54,355 nucleotides of DNA from an uncultured bacterium (GTDB taxonomy: Bacteria; Patescibacteriota; Microgenomatia; UBA1400; UBA12108): contig CAJAUT010000013.1 of assembly GCA_903945195.1 (NCBI GenBank), positions 75,473 through 129,827 of the forward strand, given 5' to 3'. Positions 4,019 through 14,693 of the stretch are shown piece by piece. A model generated the notes under the pieces. That model was not told the origin of the DNA, did not search any database, and was given only the letters and a program-made list of their open reading frames with translations. Both the position numbers and the translations under genes were made by a program. The first letter of the stretch is position 1, and every line of letters begins with the position of its first letter.

Positions 4019-4597
4019 TCATTCAAGTATGAACTGGTGATCACTAATATCTACACCTTTTGATGCTGCAAAATCATTGACAATTTTTTTACCATCAATC
4101 CTAGGTTCTTTTATTTTTATAAGCAATGTCTTTGCCGATTTGTATTTTACATATACTTGGTTTGTTTCGTATGGCAAGTATGCTGCTAAACGATAGTTAG
4201 CAGTAATTATTGCATCATTTTTTGCTAATGCAGCTACTGAGGGCTTGTTTGGTCCTAATAGAGTAATTGAGCCAATGTCCTTGCCAAAATAAATAAATGA
4301 GACTTCGTACTTTTGGTCATATTCATAAAATTGTCCGATATTAATTCCAAAATGTAATTCTTTTTCATTACGATTGTAGCCAATCATCCCATCAACTGGT
4401 GGATTAATTTTGATCTTAATTAATTGTTTGAATAATGGTAGCCTATTAAGCTTCAAGTAAATTGTATCGGTGGGTGAAACTAATGTGATTGGAATATCTA
4501 TATTTTTAATTGGTGCAATATTCAGTTGTGTTGCAAATAAATATGTTGATCCGATTGAAGATAATAGGATCAGTAATACTATAAATATTTTTTTCAT
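4019..4597 (-). CDS. Exported hypothetical protein, last gene of a three-gene operon
   Basis: 192 residues. A hydrophobic N-terminal segment (IFIVLLILLSSIGSTYLF) is either a signal peptide or a membrane anchor. The rest is predicted extracytoplasmic, with alternating hydrophobic residues suggesting beta structure. I do not recognise a family. Its ATG overlaps the stop of the 617-aa gene by one base (TAATG), so translation is coupled and it probably works with the CHAP-like protein upstream. It is more AT-rich than the rpoB side. No clear terminator is visible before the rpoB promoter. Confidence 0.75.
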   Translation of the reverse strand: MKKIFIVLLILLSSIGSTYLFATQLNIAPIKNIDIPITLVSPTDTIYLKLNRLPLFKQLIKIKINPPVDGMIGYNRNEKELHFGINIGQFYEYDQKYEVSFIYFGKDIGSITLLGPNKPSVAALAKNDAIITANYRLAAYLPYETNQVYVKYKSAKTLLIKIKEPRIDGKKIVNDFAASKGVDISDHQFILE

Positions 4598-6450
4598 TAT
4601 AAGTTTTTACTATCGTTGGTGACCCAGCACCCCTTGGTTCTAACGTCTCCGTCTGGCAGTCTGCGCCACACACCCTTTACACTATCCACTACTACTGGAT
4701 GAATCCTAGCTATATTATCTACCTGAAAATTTGCATCTGAAGTATTACATGTCGGACTACCGTCGGCATCAGTGCAAATACCAATGTGTCCAACATTATC
4801 AGTACCGCCCGAATCTGGGAAGACCATAATGTCGTCTGCATAAAATTCTTCTGGGGATTCGCAGTAGGCCCAGCCATTTGGAGTATCACCTAAACAAGAT
4901 TGTGTTACTCCACTAGCTGTCTCACGTGCACAGATAGGACTAGTTTTTAAAATAGCGCTGACTGTAATTGCTGTAAATTCTAGACACTGAAGTCCTAATG
5001 AGTCCACACTATTCTCCTTTAAGTAAGTAGCCACTTTTTTTGCAGCAGACCCATCTGAACAATTCATGGATTTGCAAAAACAGTCATATAAGTCCTGACC
5101 AGAGCCCATTCCAGATATTTGACAAGCATTTGTGACAATGGCTATATCACTCGCCGCCTGACCTAGATATCCAGATTGACCTTTATAAGTATCAATCCCT
5201 GATGGTAGGTCTATTTTCCCGCTTGAAAGATTCCCTCCCCCTACCGGCTCTTCACCATATTCCATTTTGGGGACGGTGGTTGTTGATGTAGGTGTTGGAG
5301 TTTGACTCTGAGAACCAAATTCATATTCAATGTATGGATTTGGAGTAGCATCTCTGACGATTGTGAAACCACCTGTTGTATTGGGCTCGCACGTCTCACC
5401 CGATCTTTTAGCCAATTCACATGTTTTTGCATCTTGATATGAGTTATTGGTCATGGATTCCGGACGACCTGCGGTGGCTCCGGAGTTATATGAAATAGAT
5501 CCTGCAAAATCTTTTGGAACTATACCAAACTGTGCGGTACCTTGCACCACTACACATTGCTCATTTGACTTGAGAACGGACGATCCACCACAAGATTTAT
5601 CCGCATAAAGCTTGGTAATCCGGTCGGTTTCTTTTGTAATCTCTACTTGATTTGTGGTGATTGAAGATATGTTTGACTCAGCTAATTTCTGCTCGTCTAG
5701 CTTTTGTTTATCTAGCTCTTCTTGTTCGATCCGAGTGTCTATTATGACTGGTGCAACTATTGGAGTGGGAGGATTTGATTCCCATTTGCCATTTTGGCAA
5801 TATCCTACTCGAGATAGGTTAGCAGTATGCGCATACATTAAGTTGTTGTTAAAACAGGAGGCAGTAACTTTGTCTGTAGTGGGGGTAATATAGTTGATAG
5901 CGTTCCCTTGTCCACAAATTTGTTTATTTGACAAATCATATCTACCCGCGAGACACTGAACGCACTCATTTTCAAGATTTCCAATTGGAGCCCATTGATC
6001 TGCACCAATTGTTGAGCATGATGGTCCTCCAGAGATAATGGGAATGTCTTGATTTGAGGTTTGTAAATCTAATTTTGTTGGTTGATTGTTTGTGGTAACA
6101 GTTTTTTCTATACTCGCTACAAGTGATACAACATCTACTTGTGGATCGACATTTTTTAGAATTACCTGAGAAGTATACTCTTCCCCATTATCTTTGTTGA
6201 CTGTAACTTTGACAACAGGGGTAGATGCAACTCCGGATGAAGTAAATTTTTTATCTTTGCTAATACTTTTTTGTAGAAAGGCTGCCTCTTCTGCATCTAG
6301 CCCATCAGCTAGATTGATTGATGGAGTAACCACGTTATTTTTGTACCAAAGAAGTCCAGAGAGTCCGAGCATTATTAATAATAGAGCCATAATTGATGGG
6401 AGTTTCGATAATTTATTTTTTTTGTGAAGTCTTTGTTTCATTTTTTTCAT
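4597..6450 (-). CDS. Membrane-anchored protein with C-terminal CHAP/NlpC-like amidase domain
   Basis: 617 residues. A basic N terminus and one membrane span (about residues 18-36) put the rest outside the cytoplasm. The middle is a low-complexity, cysteine-containing region. The C-terminal 170 residues look like a papain-fold peptidoglycan amidase: a cysteine in SLGLQCLEFTA (about residue 487) and a histidine in DNVGHIGIC (about 558), spaced as in CHAP/NlpC domains and preceded by a DIMVFPDSG strand. The family is inferred from this Cys/His pattern. The gene is the centre of a tight operon: 3 bases after the 123-aa gene and overlapping the next by one base. A plausible role is cutting peptidoglycan during growth, secretion or contact with a host cell. 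Low GC compared with flanking operons hints at a different history. Confidence 0.7.
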   Translation of the reverse strand: MKKMKQRLHKKNKLSKLPSIMALLLIMLGLSGLLWYKNNVVTPSINLADGLDAEEAAFLQKSISKDKKFTSSGVASTPVVKVTVNKDNGEEYTSQVILKNVDPQVDVVSLVASIEKTVTTNNQPTKLDLQTSNQDIPIISGGPSCSTIGADQWAPIGNLENECVQCLAGRYDLSNKQICGQGNAINYITPTTDKVTASCFNNNLMYAHTANLSRVGYCQNGKWESNPPTPIVAPVIIDTRIEQEELDKQKLDEQKLAESNISSITTNQVEITKETDRITKLYADKSCGGSSVLKSNEQCVVVQGTAQFGIVPKDFAGSISYNSGATAGRPESMTNNSYQDAKTCELAKRSGETCEPNTTGGFTIVRDATPNPYIEYEFGSQSQTPTPTSTTTVPKMEYGEEPVGGGNLSSGKIDLPSGIDTYKGQSGYLGQAASDIAIVTNACQISGMGSGQDLYDCFCKSMNCSDGSAAKKVATYLKENSVDSLGLQCLEFTAITVSAILKTSPICARETASGVTQSCLGDTPNGWAYCESPEEFYADDIMVFPDSGGTDNVGHIGICTDADGSPTCNTSDANFQVDNIARIHPVVVDSVKGVWRRLPDGDVRTKGCWVTNDSKNL

Positions 6451-6877: not shown

Positions 6878-7801
6878 TTAGCGGATATATTTAGCAATAT
6901 TTTGATTGTGGTCGGCGAGGGTGGCACCATAGCGAATGACGCCGGAACGGTCGTGGAGATAGAACCAATATGGAGAGGATTCTGGATTTTGTGCGGCTTT
7001 GATGCTGGATAAACCTGGATTGCAGATGGGGCCGGGTGGTAAGCCCTGATTGAGGTAGGTGTTGTAGGGAGATTTTAGTTTGCGATCCAGAAGAGTCGTA
7101 TTTGGCCACCAATTACCAGATTTCCCTAGAAAATACTGGACTGTGGCATCTAGCTCTAGAGCCCAACCAGCTTCCATACGCTTGTTTAAAATACCAGCTA
7201 CTACCGGCTTTTCGGCGTCACCCCTTGTTTCGCGCTCGATGAGCGAAGCCAAGATAAGAGTATTTTTGTCGATTGTCCCGACTTTTTTTAGGAAGTTGTC
7301 ATGCATGATTTTGACTAATTCGGTAGCAGTGATCCCCTCTTTGACGAAATAGGTGTCTGGGAAGAGCTGACCTTCCATCCCCTTGGCGGCTACCAAAAAA
7401 TCTTTGACTGGGAGACCGGCAGTTTCTGCAATTTGCTCGAGACGATAACCTTCTGGAATAGTGATTTTTTTGTCGACAGCTTTGCCTTGTGTGAGAATGA
7501 GTGCGACCTGATTTGGAGGGGCGGCTCTAGAGACTTTGAAACTACCAGCCTGGAGAGTTAATTTGTTGAATCTGACAAGGAGGCGGAAATACTGAACTGA
7601 TCTAATGAGTCCAGCTGACTTTAGGTTTGAGGCGATGGTGGTAACGCTTTCGCCTTTTTTGATCTCAAAATCCTGTAGAGCTCCGTTTTTAGCATCAACG
7701 GGTCCAAAAACATAAAAGAAAATGCCGCAGATAGCGAGTATTAAAACAAAACTAAACTTCGCTAAAAAGCGCGCGACGGTAGGTCTTTGTGGTTTTGTCA
7801 T
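6878..7801 (-). CDS. mltG: Endolytic murein transglycosylase MltG
   Basis: 307 residues from the ATG at 7801 (MTKPQRPTV). The ORF track starts at 7861, but its extra 20 residues are unlike the family and overlap most of a zinc-ribbon gene in another frame. The protein has a short cytoplasmic tail, one membrane span, then the YceG/MltG fold: a LysM-like part (FEIKKGESVTTIASNLKSAG), the catalytic Glu in LASLIERET (about residue 189), and LKSPYNTYLNQGLPPGPICNPG near the end. MltG cuts nascent glycan strands in the membrane-proximal periplasm or wall zone and sets their length. It is the last gene of the envelope operon that includes sortase and ruvX; ruvX-mltG neighbours are common in bacteria. 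Confidence 0.95.
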   Translation of the reverse strand: MTKPQRPTVARFLAKFSFVLILAICGIFFYVFGPVDAKNGALQDFEIKKGESVTTIASNLKSAGLIRSVQYFRLLVRFNKLTLQAGSFKVSRAAPPNQVALILTQGKAVDKKITIPEGYRLEQIAETAGLPVKDFLVAAKGMEGQLFPDTYFVKEGITATELVKIMHDNFLKKVGTIDKNTLILASLIERETRGDAEKPVVAGILNKRMEAGWALELDATVQYFLGKSGNWWPNTTLLDRKLKSPYNTYLNQGLPPGPICNPGLSSIKAAQNPESSPYWFYLHDRSGVIRYGATLADHNQNIAKYIR

Positions 7802-7925
7802 AGATAAAAATACGTCCACATTTGCAAGTAAATTTTTCGCCTGGCCCAAGTTTTTTGCCACACCCTACACACTGGCCTTTGCTGAGTAACCAAGCTTGAA
7901 TAGGTGCAATTACACTTTTTAACAT
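7752..7925 (-). CDS. Small zinc-ribbon protein (57 aa), overlaps mltG
   Basis: Found by reading the minus strand; it is too short for the ORF track. The ATG at 7925 opens a 57-codon frame ending at TAG (7752-7754). It contains CVGCGKKLGPGEKFTCKCG, a four-cysteine CxxC-x11-CxC knuckle that should bind zinc, followed by an aromatic/basic tail. It starts 16 bases after the ruvX stop and its last 50 bases overlap the start of mltG in another frame. No Shine-Dalgarno is visible, so translation may be coupled to ruvX. The four cysteines and the operon position argue for a real gene; function unknown. Confidence 0.6.
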   Translation of the reverse strand: MLKSVIAPIQAWLLSKGQCVGCGKKLGPGEKFTCKCGRIFIYDKTTKTYRRALFSEV

Positions 7926-7941
7926 ATAGATATATATTACA

Positions 7942-8322
7942 CTATTTTTGAAACTCCAGGTAATCTTCGAGGATTAAACAAGCCGCGTAGGCATGATCAT
8001 TCTTTTTCTTGGCCCTACTGGCACCTACTGCTATAAGTTTGGAGATAGCTTCTTGAGATGACAAAGTCTCTGGATGTAGAGTAACTGGAAGACCTGAAAA
8101 CTCGTGTAAATCAGTGGCAAATTTCTCGATGACTGGCACTAACTTGCCTTCTGGAATACCACAAATTATATCGGTGATCTGCTCTGATTTGATGAGTTTG
8201 TTTAATTTGATAAACAATTCAGAATCGTTGTGAAGAGAAGCCAGGGGTGTAGCTAGGACTGCCTCTGAAGTGGCAAGACCGATATGCACAAGACCGTAGT
8301 CTATACCTAGATATTTACTCAT
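7942..8322 (-). CDS. ruvX: Putative Holliday junction resolvase / pre-16S rRNA nuclease YqgF
   Basis: 126 residues, normal length for RuvX/YqgF. The RNase H-like fold is shown by LGIDYGLVHIGLA at the N terminus (first catalytic Asp), ICGIPEG in the middle and NDHAYAACLILEDYL at the C terminus (last acidic cluster). In E. coli YqgF processes the 5' end of pre-16S rRNA; a resolvase role has also been proposed. Its ATG overlaps the sortase stop by four bases (ATGA), so it is co-translated in the envelope operon, and mltG follows downstream as in many bacteria. Confidence 0.93.
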   Translation of the reverse strand: MSKYLGIDYGLVHIGLATSEAVLATPLASLHNDSELFIKLNKLIKSEQITDIICGIPEGKLVPVIEKFATDLHEFSGLPVTLHPETLSSQEAISKLIAVGASRAKKKNDHAYAACLILEDYLEFQK

Positions 8323-9092
8323 AAAATATATGCCTTGATAATCAACCTGCGCAGATAGGTCCCTGGAGGCGTACAGGTAATCAGCGTCAAGTAGCGGCCA
8401 TTATATACCTGGGCCAAGGGGGACAAATCATCTGGAGCTGCTTCGTACATCTGCGAAATTTTGTAGGTATAGTTGGCGCCATCTGCTGAAATACTTATAG
8501 TATCGCCTGGTTTTAAAGTGTGGAGAGTAGAAAAAATGGTTAGATAATTGGCAGGGTTAAAGAATTGGGGTAAAACTGAGTGACCAAAAATGACAGTGTT
8601 CCCGAGATTGCCTGGGTAGGCAGTGCCTGGATAGTGGATGAGGGATTGTTTGAGATCGGTATGATCAGATCTGACCACGGCGTCTTTGATCCGAAGTTTG
8701 TCGATAGATATGGTATAGACAGCATAATCTTGTGATTCTTTGGATTTGACGCTACCTGCAAACCAATTGGAGGCATCGGTATAGTCAAAGGAAGTGTTGA
8801 CCACTTCGTCAACAAAAGTAGGATTGTCTTTGGCTTCAGCTTTTTTTACATTTGCTGGAATGATGTTTTCTACGTTTGCTGTAATGGGAATAATTGGTGA
8901 AACTAGCGAAGATTTTTGAAATTCTGGTGCAAAGGCAAACTGATAATTGATGAGTGGATAGGCAACAGTTGTAAAAACTGCGATACCAAGCGTAATAAGA
9001 GTAAGTGAAAGAGCGTATCGCAATTTGAAACCCAAACCCTTTGGTAACTCTAGGGCATAGCCTGGTGGAGCTTTGACATATTTATAGGTCAT
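8319..9092 (-). CDS. Sortase (class D/E-like)
   Basis: 257 residues. A cytoplasmic tail and one membrane span (about 28-50) are followed by the sortase beta-barrel. The catalytic triad is readable: His in GNTVIFGHS (about residue 170), Cys in LTLITCTPP (about 238) and Arg in YLRRLII (about 246). Sortases cut LPxTG-like signals and join surface proteins to wall peptides or pilin lysines. Two proteins in this window end with such signals (VPVTG in the 447-aa protein, LPVAG in the 285-aa protein). The gene overlaps both its upstream and downstream neighbours by ATGA. The exact class is uncertain from sequence alone. Confidence 0.9.
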   Translation of the reverse strand: MTYKYVKAPPGYALELPKGLGFKLRYALSLTLITLGIAVFTTVAYPLINYQFAFAPEFQKSSLVSPIIPITANVENIIPANVKKAEAKDNPTFVDEVVNTSFDYTDASNWFAGSVKSKESQDYAVYTISIDKLRIKDAVVRSDHTDLKQSLIHYPGTAYPGNLGNTVIFGHSVLPQFFNPANYLTIFSTLHTLKPGDTISISADGANYTYKISQMYEAAPDDLSPLAQVYNGRYLTLITCTPPGTYLRRLIIKAYIL

Positions 9093-11323
9093 ATTGCGGG
9101 AGTGATAACAAGTTTCACATTGTTTGTGTTACTTGGAATTCTTTTGAGTTTGGTGGGCAAGCCTTTGGGGGTGATGGTAACTACTGCACTTTGATAACCT
9201 GGGATCATGCCAGATAAAATAGTTTCTAGAGCTGAAGGGTTTTTACCTTTGATGGAAGAGATAATTTTGGCGGAATCTATGACTGGTAAGAGTGATACTT
9301 GGACCTTTGCTGAACCTTTAACGGTGGTCCCATCTTCGCTGATGGAACTAGCCGTAAGATCTACGGTTGAGGGTAGGTTTGCGCGCACATAACCCATTGG
9401 CACAGCTGTATCAATTGACGAATTTACGAGACTCGTAACATCGTCTGCTTTGTATTTTAGAAGCGTGGCTTTGACAGACATAGAGAGTTTGAGGCTTTTG
9501 GCTGGGTCGCCAGTTTTATTTGTGTAGATAACACCATCTGATTTGATAGAGTCCTCGATCAAATAAGTGCCTACTCCTGGATTTATAGAGCTAGATGATG
9601 ATTTAAGTTTGTCCAAAAGTTCGGCGGTCAGTTCTTTGGCGAGAGTTTTTTGATCGTCTTTGCCTACAACCTGAACTTCTTCGGAAGTACCGCCAGTTAG
9701 CGCAGAGTCGTTTTTGGCTACATAACTATCTTTGCCAAAGCTGGCCACGGTAAACTCTGTGCCTGAAACAATATTGAAGTCTGTGCCTATAGTTGAGGCA
9801 GAAATATCTACATTGGCTTTGCCTGGTACATCTACATAGTCGCTACCTGCAGACTTACTGGCGACAGTGACATCAGAGTCTAGGGTGAATTTGAGAGTGC
9901 CGATAGAAAGAGTTACTCCTTTGGCTAGGGTTTTGACTGCTGAGGTGCGATTGTAGATAGTAACCTCACCTTTTGCGGTCTCTCCTACAGTCTTTTTGCC
10001 TGTGGTTTCCATGATTTTTTCACCTGACTGCGAAACAGAGGTGACCTCGGCTGGAACGACTGCGCCCGAAAAATCAATGGAAGTTTCTACAGTTGATAAA
10101 GTGAGATCAAGTGTTTGATCTAGAGGTTTGGGCACAACAGTGACTGTAACTAGAGCTTTTGGCAGGAAATAGACTAGGTAAAATATAAGGGCAGCAAAAA
10201 GTAATACTCCTCCACCTATCATGACCCAGAGCGATGACATGTGTGGTAGAGAAAATTTGAAAGATGGAAGCGATATCTTTGGGAGGACAATTTTGGGAGC
10301 AACAAATTTGGCTTTTTTGGGAGGTTCTTCTTCCATGACTTCTGCCTCAGCAACTACTGGGGGCTCGTCATCTGGGTCAATAAAATCAATTTTTTCTGTT
10401 TTTTGTGAACTATCGCTAAAACCAATTTCGTCAGCGGTCATAAAACCATCTCCAGAGACGGGTATGACATTTGATTCTTCTACATCTTCCATTTCTTCCA
10501 CTTCTTCTTGTTCTACTTCTTCTACAACTGGCTCTTTGACGGTTGTGGCTACAACTGAAAGTCCTAAACTCTTGGCTACTTCGGATCCTCCTGCCACAGA
10601 TAGGGCGCGGATGGCTACGTCTTTTGCAAGTGCTTCGATCTTGGGCGTATGGAGGAAATTGAACTGAGTGGGCCAATCGGTACTTAGTAAGTTTTGAATG
10701 ATGTCGTCTAGGTTGTGCATGCTATTAAAGAGGATGATGCGACTGGGCAAGTTGTCTAGGACTTTAAATCTAGCGATACCTTCTGTCACGTCTTCAACCA
10801 CATCATCGCTTCTACCGATAGTCTCGACTGCTTCGATGTGGCCTAGACGCACTAGTAAAATAGTGAGCTCGTCGCGACTGACCTGGATCATAATGGAGGT
10901 GGTGGGAGTACCTTCTTGCATCTTGAGATAGCTCAGAACACTGTCGGTGATGATGACGTACCCAATGGCAACTAGTTCTAGCTCTTTGCGGATTTTGGCG
11001 ATGAACTCTTTTTTGACACCCAAGACACCAGTTTTATCGGTCCAGCTATGTGGGATACCCAAGATGACCTCTGATGGCTCGTCTTCGATACCTTCTGTAG
11101 CACTAGAGATGGTGGCGTCGACGGCAGTGATGAGCTCGGTTGTCGTACCAGTATCGCCGTCCCATTCTACGGGAGTACCTATAGAGATGATTTCTGTGGC
11201 TTGGCTTACTACACTCCAGACTGAGGCCTGGACGACTTCGTCAGTTAAAATGAGGGCGAGAAATTTCTTTGGTTCTTCTTTGCCTGATCCTTTTAGTTTG
11301 CCCAAAAAATTGCCTAATTCCAT
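9089..11323 (-). CDS. Membrane protein: actin-like (PilM/FtsA-like) domain fused to extracytoplasmic baseplate-J-like domain
   Basis: 744 residues in three parts. Residues 1-250 look like an actin-fold ATPase of the PilM/FtsA kind (FLALILTDEVVQASVW, SEVILGIPHSW, AIGYVIITDSVLSYL); the assignment is tentative. Residues 250-355 are an acidic, low-complexity linker. A membrane span follows at about 363-387 (WVMIGGGVLLFAALIFYLVY). The rest is extracytoplasmic, with VTVTVVPKPLDQTLDLTLST, KGEVTIYNRTSAVKTLAKGV and repeats resembling baseplate-J-type proteins annotated in CPR genomes. It directly precedes and overlaps sortase (ATGA). A TGC-TAAGCT weak extended -10 ends 6 bases before the ATG. It may link a cytoplasmic ATPase scaffold to a surface structure, which is inference. 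Confidence 0.7.
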   Translation of the reverse strand: MELGNFLGKLKGSGKEEPKKFLALILTDEVVQASVWSVVSQATEIISIGTPVEWDGDTGTTTELITAVDATISSATEGIEDEPSEVILGIPHSWTDKTGVLGVKKEFIAKIRKELELVAIGYVIITDSVLSYLKMQEGTPTTSIMIQVSRDELTILLVRLGHIEAVETIGRSDDVVEDVTEGIARFKVLDNLPSRIILFNSMHNLDDIIQNLLSTDWPTQFNFLHTPKIEALAKDVAIRALSVAGGSEVAKSLGLSVVATTVKEPVVEEVEQEEVEEMEDVEESNVIPVSGDGFMTADEIGFSDSSQKTEKIDFIDPDDEPPVVAEAEVMEEEPPKKAKFVAPKIVLPKISLPSFKFSLPHMSSLWVMIGGGVLLFAALIFYLVYFLPKALVTVTVVPKPLDQTLDLTLSTVETSIDFSGAVVPAEVTSVSQSGEKIMETTGKKTVGETAKGEVTIYNRTSAVKTLAKGVTLSIGTLKFTLDSDVTVASKSAGSDYVDVPGKANVDISASTIGTDFNIVSGTEFTVASFGKDSYVAKNDSALTGGTSEEVQVVGKDDQKTLAKELTAELLDKLKSSSSSINPGVGTYLIEDSIKSDGVIYTNKTGDPAKSLKLSMSVKATLLKYKADDVTSLVNSSIDTAVPMGYVRANLPSTVDLTASSISEDGTTVKGSAKVQVSLLPVIDSAKIISSIKGKNPSALETILSGMIPGYQSAVVTITPKGLPTKLKRIPSNTNNVKLVITPAI

Positions 11324-11348: not shown

Positions 11349-12875
11349 TCAATAAGTCCTAAAACTACCCACATATCCTGAGTGAGATCCTGGAAGATTT
11401 GGATCCTCGCCGTAATCAATTTCAAATGAAATTTGGCTATTAGCTGGAAACCCTTCACCACTAACTGGCTCTATGATTGCTTGATTTAGGAATAATTTGG
11501 TAATTTTAATTGGGGTCTCGACATTATTAACTTTAAATATGTATGGAATCGTTATGTCTCCAAAAGCATAATAGTAACAATTGATACAACTATTATCTCT
11601 TTGTCTAAAATAGCGTACTTTTTTCCCATCTACGACTTCGATGGGACTAGTGAAGTGGGCTATCATGACTGCGGGCTGAGATTTAGATACCATTGATTTG
11701 GTGGGATTGTTGATAAGCAATTCACTTCCATCTGCATAATGGGCATAATACAAGTCTTGAACTTGATCTAGATCAAACACTTTGAGTAAAAATTCACCAA
11801 TTTTTCCTGGATAGCTATTTACAATTAAGTAATATCTAGCTCCTGATGGAGGCTCATTGTTCCCCCCTATCCCGATTCTTGTGCCTGCTTTAGTGATCAA
11901 ATTGCCTGCTTGATCATATAGTTCACTTTGGATAAAAGATCCAGTAGTTTTCAATGCTTCTTTCCCTTCTTCGGCCAACACTTCAACTCTCTGTCCAGGC
12001 AAAACCACAAAAGTGTAAAGTCTAGCAAAGCCTTCTTTATATGCTTTGTCTGTTTGAGATAATCTCTCTGGATATGGTCCTGCCATGATCTCAATCTCTT
12101 TCCAATCGGCAATATTAAAGCCTGCAATAGAGGCGATTTGCACAGATCCACTAGGAGTAGAGGATTCCTGCGCCGATACTTTGGGGATTAAGAAATTTGG
12201 AATAGAGTAAGTTTGCTTGGTTGAAGGAGAAATGATTTTAATTAATGAGACTTTATATTTTGCGATTGATGATTGGTCACCGTAGAGAGTCAGTAGGGCT
12301 GTGTTGATGCCCAGATTTTTTTTAACTTGAACCACCTCTCTAGTGGATGAGAGAAATTTTTCCTTGCCTGTAAAAACCTGCAGATCACCCTCTATGATTG
12401 GTTCTCCCAACTCTAGATAAAGATTGGGAGCAAATTCGTTGCTGGGCCCTATTTGGACGTCTACATAAACTGAAGTTTTGGTGGACTCGGCGGGAAACAA
12501 TCTTGCTGCGAGAACGTTGTTTGATTTGCTTGAAATACTAATTTTCCAGCCAGCAGGTATATTTATCTTTTGCCCTGAGACGCTTAGACTACTGCTTGAG
12601 TCTAGTTCAAGTTCTTGTGTGGATGGAGAATCATTATTATCAATTGTTGTTGTCTCGGGCGGGACTAGTGTGGAGTCAGATTTTTTTGCAATCAAGGAAT
12701 TAAATTTAGAATAACCAAGATAGGCAAGAGCTAAGACAACTAATAAAATGACTAGGAATACTGGGAGAAAAATTTTCTTTTGTGATGGTGGATTAATTAA
12801 TTGTGCTGGCGGTTCGATAACAGGATTTGCAGAAGTTTCAGATGATACTGTCTGCTCAGCATTAAGTTCTTCCAT
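11349..12875 (-). CDS. Single-span membrane protein with large exported region
   Basis: 508 residues. A Pro-rich cytoplasmic tail of about 33 residues, one membrane span (IFLPVFLVILLVVLALAYLGY), then a long exported region. The first exported part (INIPAGWKISISSKSNN) resembles the PsbP-like modules encoded at 19976-26332. The C-terminal part is beta-rich and ends SHSGYVGSFRTY. No catalytic motif is recognised. TAGAAT ends 7 bases before the ATG, suggesting a leaderless transcript that heads the sortase-ruvX-mltG operon; the gap to the 744-aa gene is 25 bases. Confidence 0.7.
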   Translation of the reverse strand: MEELNAEQTVSSETSANPVIEPPAQLINPPSQKKIFLPVFLVILLVVLALAYLGYSKFNSLIAKKSDSTLVPPETTTIDNNDSPSTQELELDSSSSLSVSGQKINIPAGWKISISSKSNNVLAARLFPAESTKTSVYVDVQIGPSNEFAPNLYLELGEPIIEGDLQVFTGKEKFLSSTREVVQVKKNLGINTALLTLYGDQSSIAKYKVSLIKIISPSTKQTYSIPNFLIPKVSAQESSTPSGSVQIASIAGFNIADWKEIEIMAGPYPERLSQTDKAYKEGFARLYTFVVLPGQRVEVLAEEGKEALKTTGSFIQSELYDQAGNLITKAGTRIGIGGNNEPPSGARYYLIVNSYPGKIGEFLLKVFDLDQVQDLYYAHYADGSELLINNPTKSMVSKSQPAVMIAHFTSPIEVVDGKKVRYFRQRDNSCINCYYYAFGDITIPYIFKVNNVETPIKITKLFLNQAIIEPVSGEGFPANSQISFEIDYGEDPNLPGSHSGYVGSFRTY

Positions 12876-12914: not shown

Positions 12915-14693
12915 CTATTTAAGCCTGGCGTAGATGCGGCGCTTGCCAGAGCCAAGAGACTCGTCTTTGTAAATTTCGATCGCGCCTATGACACCAGTAC
13001 GTTCAACGTGTGGGCCGCCACAGAGTTCGCGTGAGTAGTCCCCTATTCTATAAACACTAACTTTGTCTGGGTATTTGTCGGCAAAGAAAGCTTTGACACC
13101 ACTTTCAAGTGCCATCTTTTTATCTTCGATAGTTTTGACAACTGGCAGGTCAGCTTTGATTTTAGTGTTTATGATGGATCCTATTTCTTTGATTTGCTCA
13201 GCTGTAGGTTTTCCAGAATAGGTATAGTCGAAACGTAGCCTTTCACTTGTGATATTTGACCCCGCTTGGGAGATTTCGCTACCCAGGACATCGTATAAAG
13301 CTTGATGAAGTAGATGGGTGGCGGTGTGATATTTGGTCGTGATCTCGCCCTGATCAGCTAGACCACCTTTAAACATGCCAGCGCTGGCTGTGCGACTCCC
13401 CTCTTTGTGTATCGCAAAGATTTTGTCGAACTCTGCCTGATCTAGAGTGATGTTTTTTTCGGCTAGGAGGTCGCGCGTGATTTCGTAAGGGAAGCCTAGA
13501 CTCTGATAAAGATTGAACGCAAACTGAGCGTCAATTTTGTTTATATCTGTTCGTTCTATTTCTTTAAGACCTTTGTCTAAAGCTTTGCCGAATTTGTCGA
13601 GCTCCGCTATAACCACGGCTTGGACATGATCTAGGGAGGAAGCATCGATGAAACCAGCGTCTGAGTATTCTTTGACTATGGCTGGGATACATTCTTTAAA
13701 GATAAGTTTGGCATCTGCACCAAGTAAACGAACCCTCACGGCTGCACGACGTAAAAGTCTGCGTAGGATATAGCCTTGGAGTTTGTTGCTGGGCTCTGTA
13801 CCTTGGGCGATCATAAATGCAGCGGCACGCAAGTGATCAGCCACCACTCGCATAGGAGACATGTAGACGCCCTCGTACTTTTTGCCGCTAGATTTTTCGA
13901 TTGCAGCGATGAGGGAACTAAACATGTCGATTTTGAAAACATCTGGATCGTTGTTGACGGCGGCTACTAACCTTTCTAGTCCTCCGCCAAAATCTACGTT
14001 TTGAGCAGGTAGTGGTTCTAGACCTTTTTCAGTTTTGACATATGCCATAAAGACTGAGTTGCCGATTTCCATAAATCTGCCACAATCGCAGTTTGGGTGA
14101 CATTTGTCACCATATTTAGAGTCGTGCACAACATCCGTAAACTCAAAAAATACTTCGCTCGTTGGGCCACCGATCTCACCTACTGGCATTTGATCTGGAG
14201 TTCCTGCTCTACTCCACCAGTTTTTCTTGCCAGGGTAATAAAAGATGTGGTCGTCTTTGACCCCTAGCGACTGCCAAATTTTGTATGCCTCTAGATCTTT
14301 TTCAACGAAATCATTGCCTTCGAACAAGGTCACATATAGTTTGTCAGGTGACAATCCCAGTTCTTTGGTCAAGAATTCCCAGACCCAGGGCAATTGTTCT
14401 TTTTTAAAATAGTCACCTAGTGACCAGTTGCCTAACATCTCAAACATGCAAGTGTGTCTATTGTCGCCGACTTCCTCGATATCTTCGGAGCGGAAACTGG
14501 GCTGAGAGTCTACGATCCGCTTGCCCATGGAGTGAGGTTCGCCTTTTAGGTACGGCACCATTTGTTGCATGCCAGAACTAGTAAAGAGTGTGGTTGGGTC
14601 ATCAGGTGGGATGATCGGGGCTGCAGGGATCACGGCATGACCACGACTCTCAAAAAACTTTAGATACTTGGATCGGATTTCACTGGCTTTCAT
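12915..14693 (-). CDS. alaS: Alanine--tRNA ligase, short form without C-Ala domain
   Basis: 592 residues against about 875 in E. coli. The class II catalytic core is complete (TLFTSSGMQQMVPYL, FRSEDIEEVGDNRHTCMFEM, GGLERLV), followed by the tRNA-binding helical region and the editing domain with its zinc ligands (HTATHLLH at about 457, CGGPH at about 559). The protein stops right after the editing domain (GSGKRRIYARLK), so the C-Ala/DHHA1 oligomerisation domain is absent. No stray C-Ala fragment is seen nearby, so this looks like a natural short form and not a broken gene. It charges tRNA-Ala and should still clear Ser/Gly mischarging. Its extended -10 (TGC-TACAAT) ends 7 bases before the ATG, implying a leaderless mRNA. 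Confidence 0.97.
   Translation of the reverse strand: MKASEIRSKYLKFFESRGHAVIPAAPIIPPDDPTTLFTSSGMQQMVPYLKGEPHSMGKRIVDSQPSFRSEDIEEVGDNRHTCMFEMLGNWSLGDYFKKEQLPWVWEFLTKELGLSPDKLYVTLFEGNDFVEKDLEAYKIWQSLGVKDDHIFYYPGKKNWWSRAGTPDQMPVGEIGGPTSEVFFEFTDVVHDSKYGDKCHPNCDCGRFMEIGNSVFMAYVKTEKGLEPLPAQNVDFGGGLERLVAAVNNDPDVFKIDMFSSLIAAIEKSSGKKYEGVYMSPMRVVADHLRAAAFMIAQGTEPSNKLQGYILRRLLRRAAVRVRLLGADAKLIFKECIPAIVKEYSDAGFIDASSLDHVQAVVIAELDKFGKALDKGLKEIERTDINKIDAQFAFNLYQSLGFPYEITRDLLAEKNITLDQAEFDKIFAIHKEGSRTASAGMFKGGLADQGEITTKYHTATHLLHQALYDVLGSEISQAGSNITSERLRFDYTYSGKPTAEQIKEIGSIINTKIKADLPVVKTIEDKKMALESGVKAFFADKYPDKVSVYRIGDYSRELCGGPHVERTGVIGAIEIYKDESLGSGKRRIYARLK

Follow-up and report, generated by a model that had tools for sequence, protein, structure and literature searches.

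The nearest architectural parallel to the protein described here is GspL, in which an actin-fold cytoplasmic domain, a linker, a single membrane span and an extracytoplasmic domain are joined in one chain, and whose counterpart encoded by separate genes is the PilM/PilN pair (PMC3815138). The actin fold with two lobes is also that of the FtsA family (PF14450, TIGR01174), where subdomain 1C serves self-association and IIB contacts FtsZ. Relative to actin, the IC subdomain of FtsA stands in place of IB (PMC6450608). On the extracytoplasmic side, the relevant family is the baseplate J-like barrel (PF04865), known from phage baseplate wedge proteins such as Mu gp47. Finally, Meheust et al. (2019, PMC6744442) reported a CPR sortase family, fam000526, that almost all Microgenomates carry and that has a patchy distribution in the remaining CPR, and the passage of that paper concerning the family does not tie it to a neighbouring actin-fold membrane protein.

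The window, i.e., the whole stretch of 54,355 nucleotides that was analysed, contains a reading frame with the layout of GspL (Table 1). As proposed in the preliminary description, an N-terminal domain, an acidic linker, one span and an exported region follow each other in a single polypeptide, and its stop codon overlaps the start of the sortase gene by four bases (junction CCCGCAATATGACC). The linker carries a mean net acidic charge of ~8 across 78 homologues. Because positive charge is greater on the N-terminal than on the C-terminal side of the span in 87% of homologues, the positive-inside rule argues for an N-in/C-out topology.

Table 1. Positions of the fused gene, its parts and its neighbours in the window.
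Feature	Coordinates	Strand	Evidence
Fused FtsA-like / baseplate-J-like membrane protein, 744 aa	9089..11323	(-)	Intact ORF
Cytoplasmic actin-fold domain, FtsA-like, ~residues 14-252	10568..11284	(-)	AF2, Foldseek, profile and motif counts
Former phosphate-1 loop, residues 21-29, FLALILTDE (ALDIGTE in unfused homologues)	11237..11263	(-)	Alignment
Short loop at site of missing subdomain 1C, residues 94-101	11021..11044	(-)	Alignment
Acidic linker, presumably disordered, ~residues 253-360	10244..10567	(-)	Sequence
Linker motif [LFIV]GF, residues 297-304, ADEIGFSD, candidate docking motif	10412..10435	(-)	Shuffle comparison
Single transmembrane span, ~residues 365-386	10166..10231	(-)	Hydropathy 2.42
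Extracytoplasmic region, residues 388-744	9092..10162	(-)	AF2 and Foldseek
Baseplate-J-type beta-barrel, residues 447-549, best conserved part	9677..9985	(-)	PF04865 18.5 bits, E 4.6e-4
Sortase, 257 aa, ATGA overlap with fused gene	8319..9092	(-)	PF04203 E 8.5e-24
RuvX, conserved neighbour	7942..8322	(-)	PF03652 E 2.5e-21; synteny
MltG/YceG endolytic transglycosylase, conserved neighbour	6878..7861	(-)	PF02618 E 6.9e-68; synteny
Alanyl-tRNA synthetase (AlaS), conserved upstream neighbour	12915..14693	(-)	PF01411 E 1.4e-106; synteny

As a single sequence, the window protein could not be identified among curated families and PDB sequences, and it retrieved zero relatives from genome contigs; the sequences of relatives were required in a whole-genome search. 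By that route homologues, mostly of full length and with intact frames in nearly all cases, were found in 50 of 53 relatives, and a homologue is present in 183 of the 187 genomes of the class (Microgenomates). The named relatives all belong to this class (Woesebacteria, Gottesmanbacteria, Collierbacteria, Chisholmbacteria and others). Conservation at this level places the fused reading frame far above chance. The full-length profile also matches 368 of 380 genomes sampled across the phylum, which makes it look like a core gene family of a very large and least understood bacterial group, but outside the class the match is mostly confined to the C-terminal half and falls in reading frames of ~500–600 aa. 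Sequences from across the phylum diverged too far for their alignment to support a pattern scan. We found no description of such a module in the open-access literature on Patescibacteria, CPR, Microgenomates or Saccharibacteria that also concerns FtsA, sortase, baseplate J or PilM, a scope that leaves novelty unproven.

For the cytoplasmic domain, the AF2 model of residues 14–270 (41 homologues, pLDDT 92.9) has the two lobes of an actin-type fold, and Foldseek aligns it with FtsA (3wt0), PilM (5eox), EutJ and Ppx/GppA at TM-scores of ~0.4–0.6, the E-values against FtsA, PilM and EutJ being ~1e-7. The actin-like fold claimed in the preliminary description, which had named structure prediction of residues 1–250 with a fold search as a check, is thereby upheld. 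Sequence profiles alone gave no identification of the N domain of the window protein, and the window protein does not match TIGR01174, which carries the curated FtsA cut-off. A profile built from the relatives' N domains does match FtsA-family genes, and is colinear with FtsA-like genes that lie next to AlaS in other genomes. These score 46–67 bits, compared with at most 4.8 bits for divisome FtsA and at most 1.2 bits for MreB/PilM, where the sequences L219–L226 read as MreB (GIDLGTANTLVYV...), so that their scores count for MreB and only L174 is PilM-like. A PilM origin of the fused domain was ruled out by the profile scores, the genome's own PilM-type protein (L174) reaching 0.4 bits. In a phylogenetic tree the fused domains group on a single branch (100/100), and the FtsA-like gene of locus L151 lies next to it (90/86); long branches leave the exact placement unsure. 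Of the combined PilM/FtsA label given earlier, the shared fold therefore stands and the kinship with PilM does not, the true relative being a separate FtsA-like paralogue. The divisome FtsA of the same genome is a separate gene (G000:C2).

Outside the class, searches with the N domain find separate reading frames of ~420 aa. Their products belong to the FtsA family, with PF14450 above its cut-off and matches to TIGR01174 (E 1e-25 to 1e-35) that fall short of the equivalog cut-off, and a divisome FtsA that scores above the cut-off is encoded elsewhere in every genome tested. A second FtsA-like gene is present in 20 of 20 unfused genomes and absent from the three fused genomes tested. Both halves lie on one contig in 40 of the 42 genomes checked, which have both among the matches listed; the matched stretches are separated by 456 bases in the median, and one of the two exceptions has both matches at contig edges. 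At all 20 loci that were read, the FtsA-like gene is followed on the same strand by the gene for the C-terminal half, which encodes a linker–TM–baseplate-J protein, and the pair mostly sits after AlaS and before RuvX–MltG. The two-gene and one-gene arrangements link two otherwise unassigned proteins as one working unit. If the unfused pair exists in the cultivated and genetically tractable Saccharibacteria, a role in envelope assembly or host attachment would be directly testable.

The unfused C-terminal proteins (L151–L170) begin with a conserved alpha/beta domain of ~80 aa (IYLEPDEEITSVIDKI...VNLKLLKRQA..LGK.I.IVT), which may be a docking domain for the FtsA-like partner. Survival of this domain in the fused protein is unsupported (best E 0.11). 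The linkers of the fused proteins carry a conserved motif, [LFIV]GF, which is present in 60 of 75 distinct sequences, whereas shuffled linkers would give 3.8 (maximum 9); among the 20 unfused proteins it is seen only in L151, the nearest unfused relative.

Alignment to FtsA shows that the blocks corresponding to subdomains IA and IIA are kept in the fused domain and that two regions are missing, the subdomain boundaries being assigned from the alignment and from general knowledge of FtsA. The 1C region shrinks from 87 aa in the unfused proteins to a median of 7 aa in the fused ones (~80–87 residues missing), and the IIB-containing region from 72 aa to 25 aa (~47 residues missing). The nucleotide-binding motifs are affected as well. 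The phosphate-1, phosphate-2 and adenosine motifs are intact in 19–20 of 20 unfused homologues, and lost in nearly all 78 fused ones, the window protein included. Thus, the phosphate-1 Asp is kept in 20/20 unfused but only 2/78 fused proteins, the first Gly of the adenosine GGG survives in 6/78, and at the phosphate-2 position Asp falls outside the eight most frequent residues, which together make up 67/78. The fused domain has neither the 1C and IIB regions of FtsA nor its ATP motifs, is tethered by its own TM span, and is not the divisome FtsA, even though its unfused homologues at the same locus belong to the FtsA family by profile. Judged from sequence, the earlier designation as an actin-like ATPase fits the fold but probably not the activity, since the nucleotide motifs, and with them the 1C and IIB regions, are gone in almost all fused homologues. 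Degenerate motifs of this kind may be compatible with nucleotide binding through other residues. The loss of the ATP motifs upon fusion offers a clean way of testing the purpose of the actin part.

The extracytoplasmic region (residues 388–744) was predicted by AF2 with a pLDDT of 93.9 (41 homologues). Its best Foldseek matches in the PDB (probability 1.00, E 2e-6) are baseplate wedge proteins of phi812, cyanophage A-1(L), diffocin and Mu, together with the barrel of GlxA, and its best matches in BFVD are baseplate J proteins, with E-values down to 8e-9. The TM-scores over the whole length are only ~0.2, so the similarity extends to no more than a portion of the ectodomain, in all likelihood the barrel. 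The PF04865 score of the window protein lies below the cut-off of 21.1 bits, but 17 of 41 homologues match this family at E<0.01 (best E 1.2e-6), and six of the 41 match the baseplate wedge family phrog_6. The baseplate-J-like exterior of the preliminary description, low in sequence score for the window protein itself, is in this way supported by the fold, and neither a non-actin N-terminal fold nor membership of the exterior in a known unrelated family was found. Common to this protein and phage baseplate J proteins is, by profile and Foldseek, the barrel only; here it is anchored by a TM span, present in a single copy in the genome (the fused gene itself), and located outside any tail gene cluster.

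In 40 of 40 loci from the same taxonomic order, the fused gene is followed downstream by a sortase gene, which is with few exceptions the very next one; in a partly overlapping set of class loci, the sortase follows directly in 48 of 49 cases. A coupling to sortase, as first suggested from the sequence alone, is supported by this co-occurrence. The catalytic His and Cys and the aligned Arg are present in all 41 linked sortases. At none of the 20 loci with the unfused pair does a sortase lie beside it, and most of these genomes carry sortases elsewhere, unlinked. This distribution agrees with that reported for fam000526 by Meheust et al. (PMC6744442), a family that the linked sortase resembles in its distribution. 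The only fused locus that lacks a linked sortase is L110 (G078), where RuvX and MltG directly follow the fused gene. At L081 (G043) the downstream sortase is split into two reading frames of 115 and 171 aa, by a frameshift or an assembly error. As for possible substrates, the LPXTG anchor model TIGR01167 was found in two of 20 order relatives and not in the genome under study (G000), and when the window and loci were scanned for sorting signals at C-termini, a single unconvincing match came up, in a 104-aa ORF. The substrates of the sortase may use an undescribed sorting signal.

Several accounts of the fused protein can be weighed against these data. One holds that it is a working actin-like ATPase, which polymerises or switches with ATP and signals across the membrane to a surface appendage. 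The high-confidence actin-like fold and the complete motifs of the unfused homologues are what such a protein would have, but the key nucleotide-binding residues have disappeared together with the 1C region that FtsA uses for self-association, and no appendage gene was seen in the neighbourhood read, so that this account appears very improbable. Nothing indicates the surface appendage invoked in the preliminary description, the "baseplate" amounting to one barrel domain. Slightly better placed, but still improbable, is an equivalence to GspL or PilM–PilN, i.e., a place in the platform of a type IV pilus or of a type II-like secretion machine. The layout is the same, the cytoplasmic and periplasmic parts of GspL correspond to PilM and PilN (PMC3815138), and PilM is among the fold matches of the N domain. 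Against this, the genome has a separate PilM-type protein that the fused-domain profile hardly recognises, the ectodomain is a baseplate-J barrel and not the ferredoxin-like fold of GspL and PilN, and the neighbours scanned included no recognisable pil gene. The fused protein uses another actin paralogue and is linked to sortase, RuvX and MltG instead of pilus genes; GspL is its nearest parallel in layout, and the protein is not a member of that family.

Derivation of the exterior from a phage or contractile injection system, of which it would still be a part, is suggested by the wedge proteins among the best Foldseek matches and by the phrog_6 matches, but is hardly credible given the low whole-region TM-scores, the occurrence of a single barrel also in GlxA, the one ectodomain copy in the genome, and a window in which the ORFs scanned include no tail, sheath or tube gene. 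A more serious competitor, although we consider it unlikely, is a stand-alone envelope protein beside which the sortase is a functionally unlinked neighbour kept by gene order. The order of AlaS, RuvX and MltG is stable across the phylum, the sortases of unfused genomes lie elsewhere without linkage, and in a neighbourhood rich in housekeeping genes (AlaS, RuvX, RpoB) adjacency may partly reflect inherited synteny. Nevertheless, the linked sortase is confined to the fused class, where with few exceptions it abuts or overlaps the fused gene, and the linkage persists over deep divergence, with a single break among the fused loci examined.

The explanation that we favour, and to which we would give about an even chance, is a nucleotide-independent, membrane-spanning envelope scaffold that places the sortase near wall enzymes, and that represents the fused Microgenomates form of a phylum-wide module. 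The ancestral form would have been a gene pair, consisting of an FtsA-family actin-like ATPase and a single-span protein with an outer baseplate-J-type barrel. The two genes merged in Microgenomates, and the actin part was reduced to its two core lobes. Given the loss of the ATP-binding residues and of 1C and IIB, the actin part is most likely a static platform for docking or oligomerisation, and not a nucleotide-switched filament. The GF motif of the acidic linker probably binds this platform or another cytoplasmic partner. At sites of envelope assembly in the wall zone, the ectodomain would most likely hold or activate the co-encoded sortase, and possibly MltG or other wall enzymes. The domain layout, the fusion, the motif losses, the conservation and the linkage to the sortase are seen directly in the data, whereas the lack of ATP binding, the scaffold function, the contact with the sortase and the place of action are inferred from them. 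Transmission of a cytoplasmic assembly state to the exterior, as envisaged in the preliminary description, is conceivable for the unfused two-gene form, but a weak proposition for the fused one. In its widest form, the scaffold model would imply that nearly all Patescibacteria possess an undescribed envelope system composed of a baseplate-J-barrel membrane protein and an FtsA-like ATPase additional to that of the divisome, and that in Microgenomates this system has been condensed into one pseudo-actin scaffold, independent of nucleotide, to which a sortase is recruited. This wider proposal is tentative, and we regard it as somewhat doubtful; if it is true, a cytoskeletal switch has been converted into a structural element that anchors the assembly of surface proteins.

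Two further genes in the vicinity encode predicted membrane or exported proteins. Between AlaS and the fused gene lies a 508-aa predicted membrane/exported protein (11349–12875, minus strand), which has no match in the 40 order loci and looks lineage-specific. A few genes past MltG, a 617-aa exported protein (4597–6450, minus strand) carries a C-terminal CHAP-like domain that scores below the Pfam cut-off, and is a candidate wall hydrolase.
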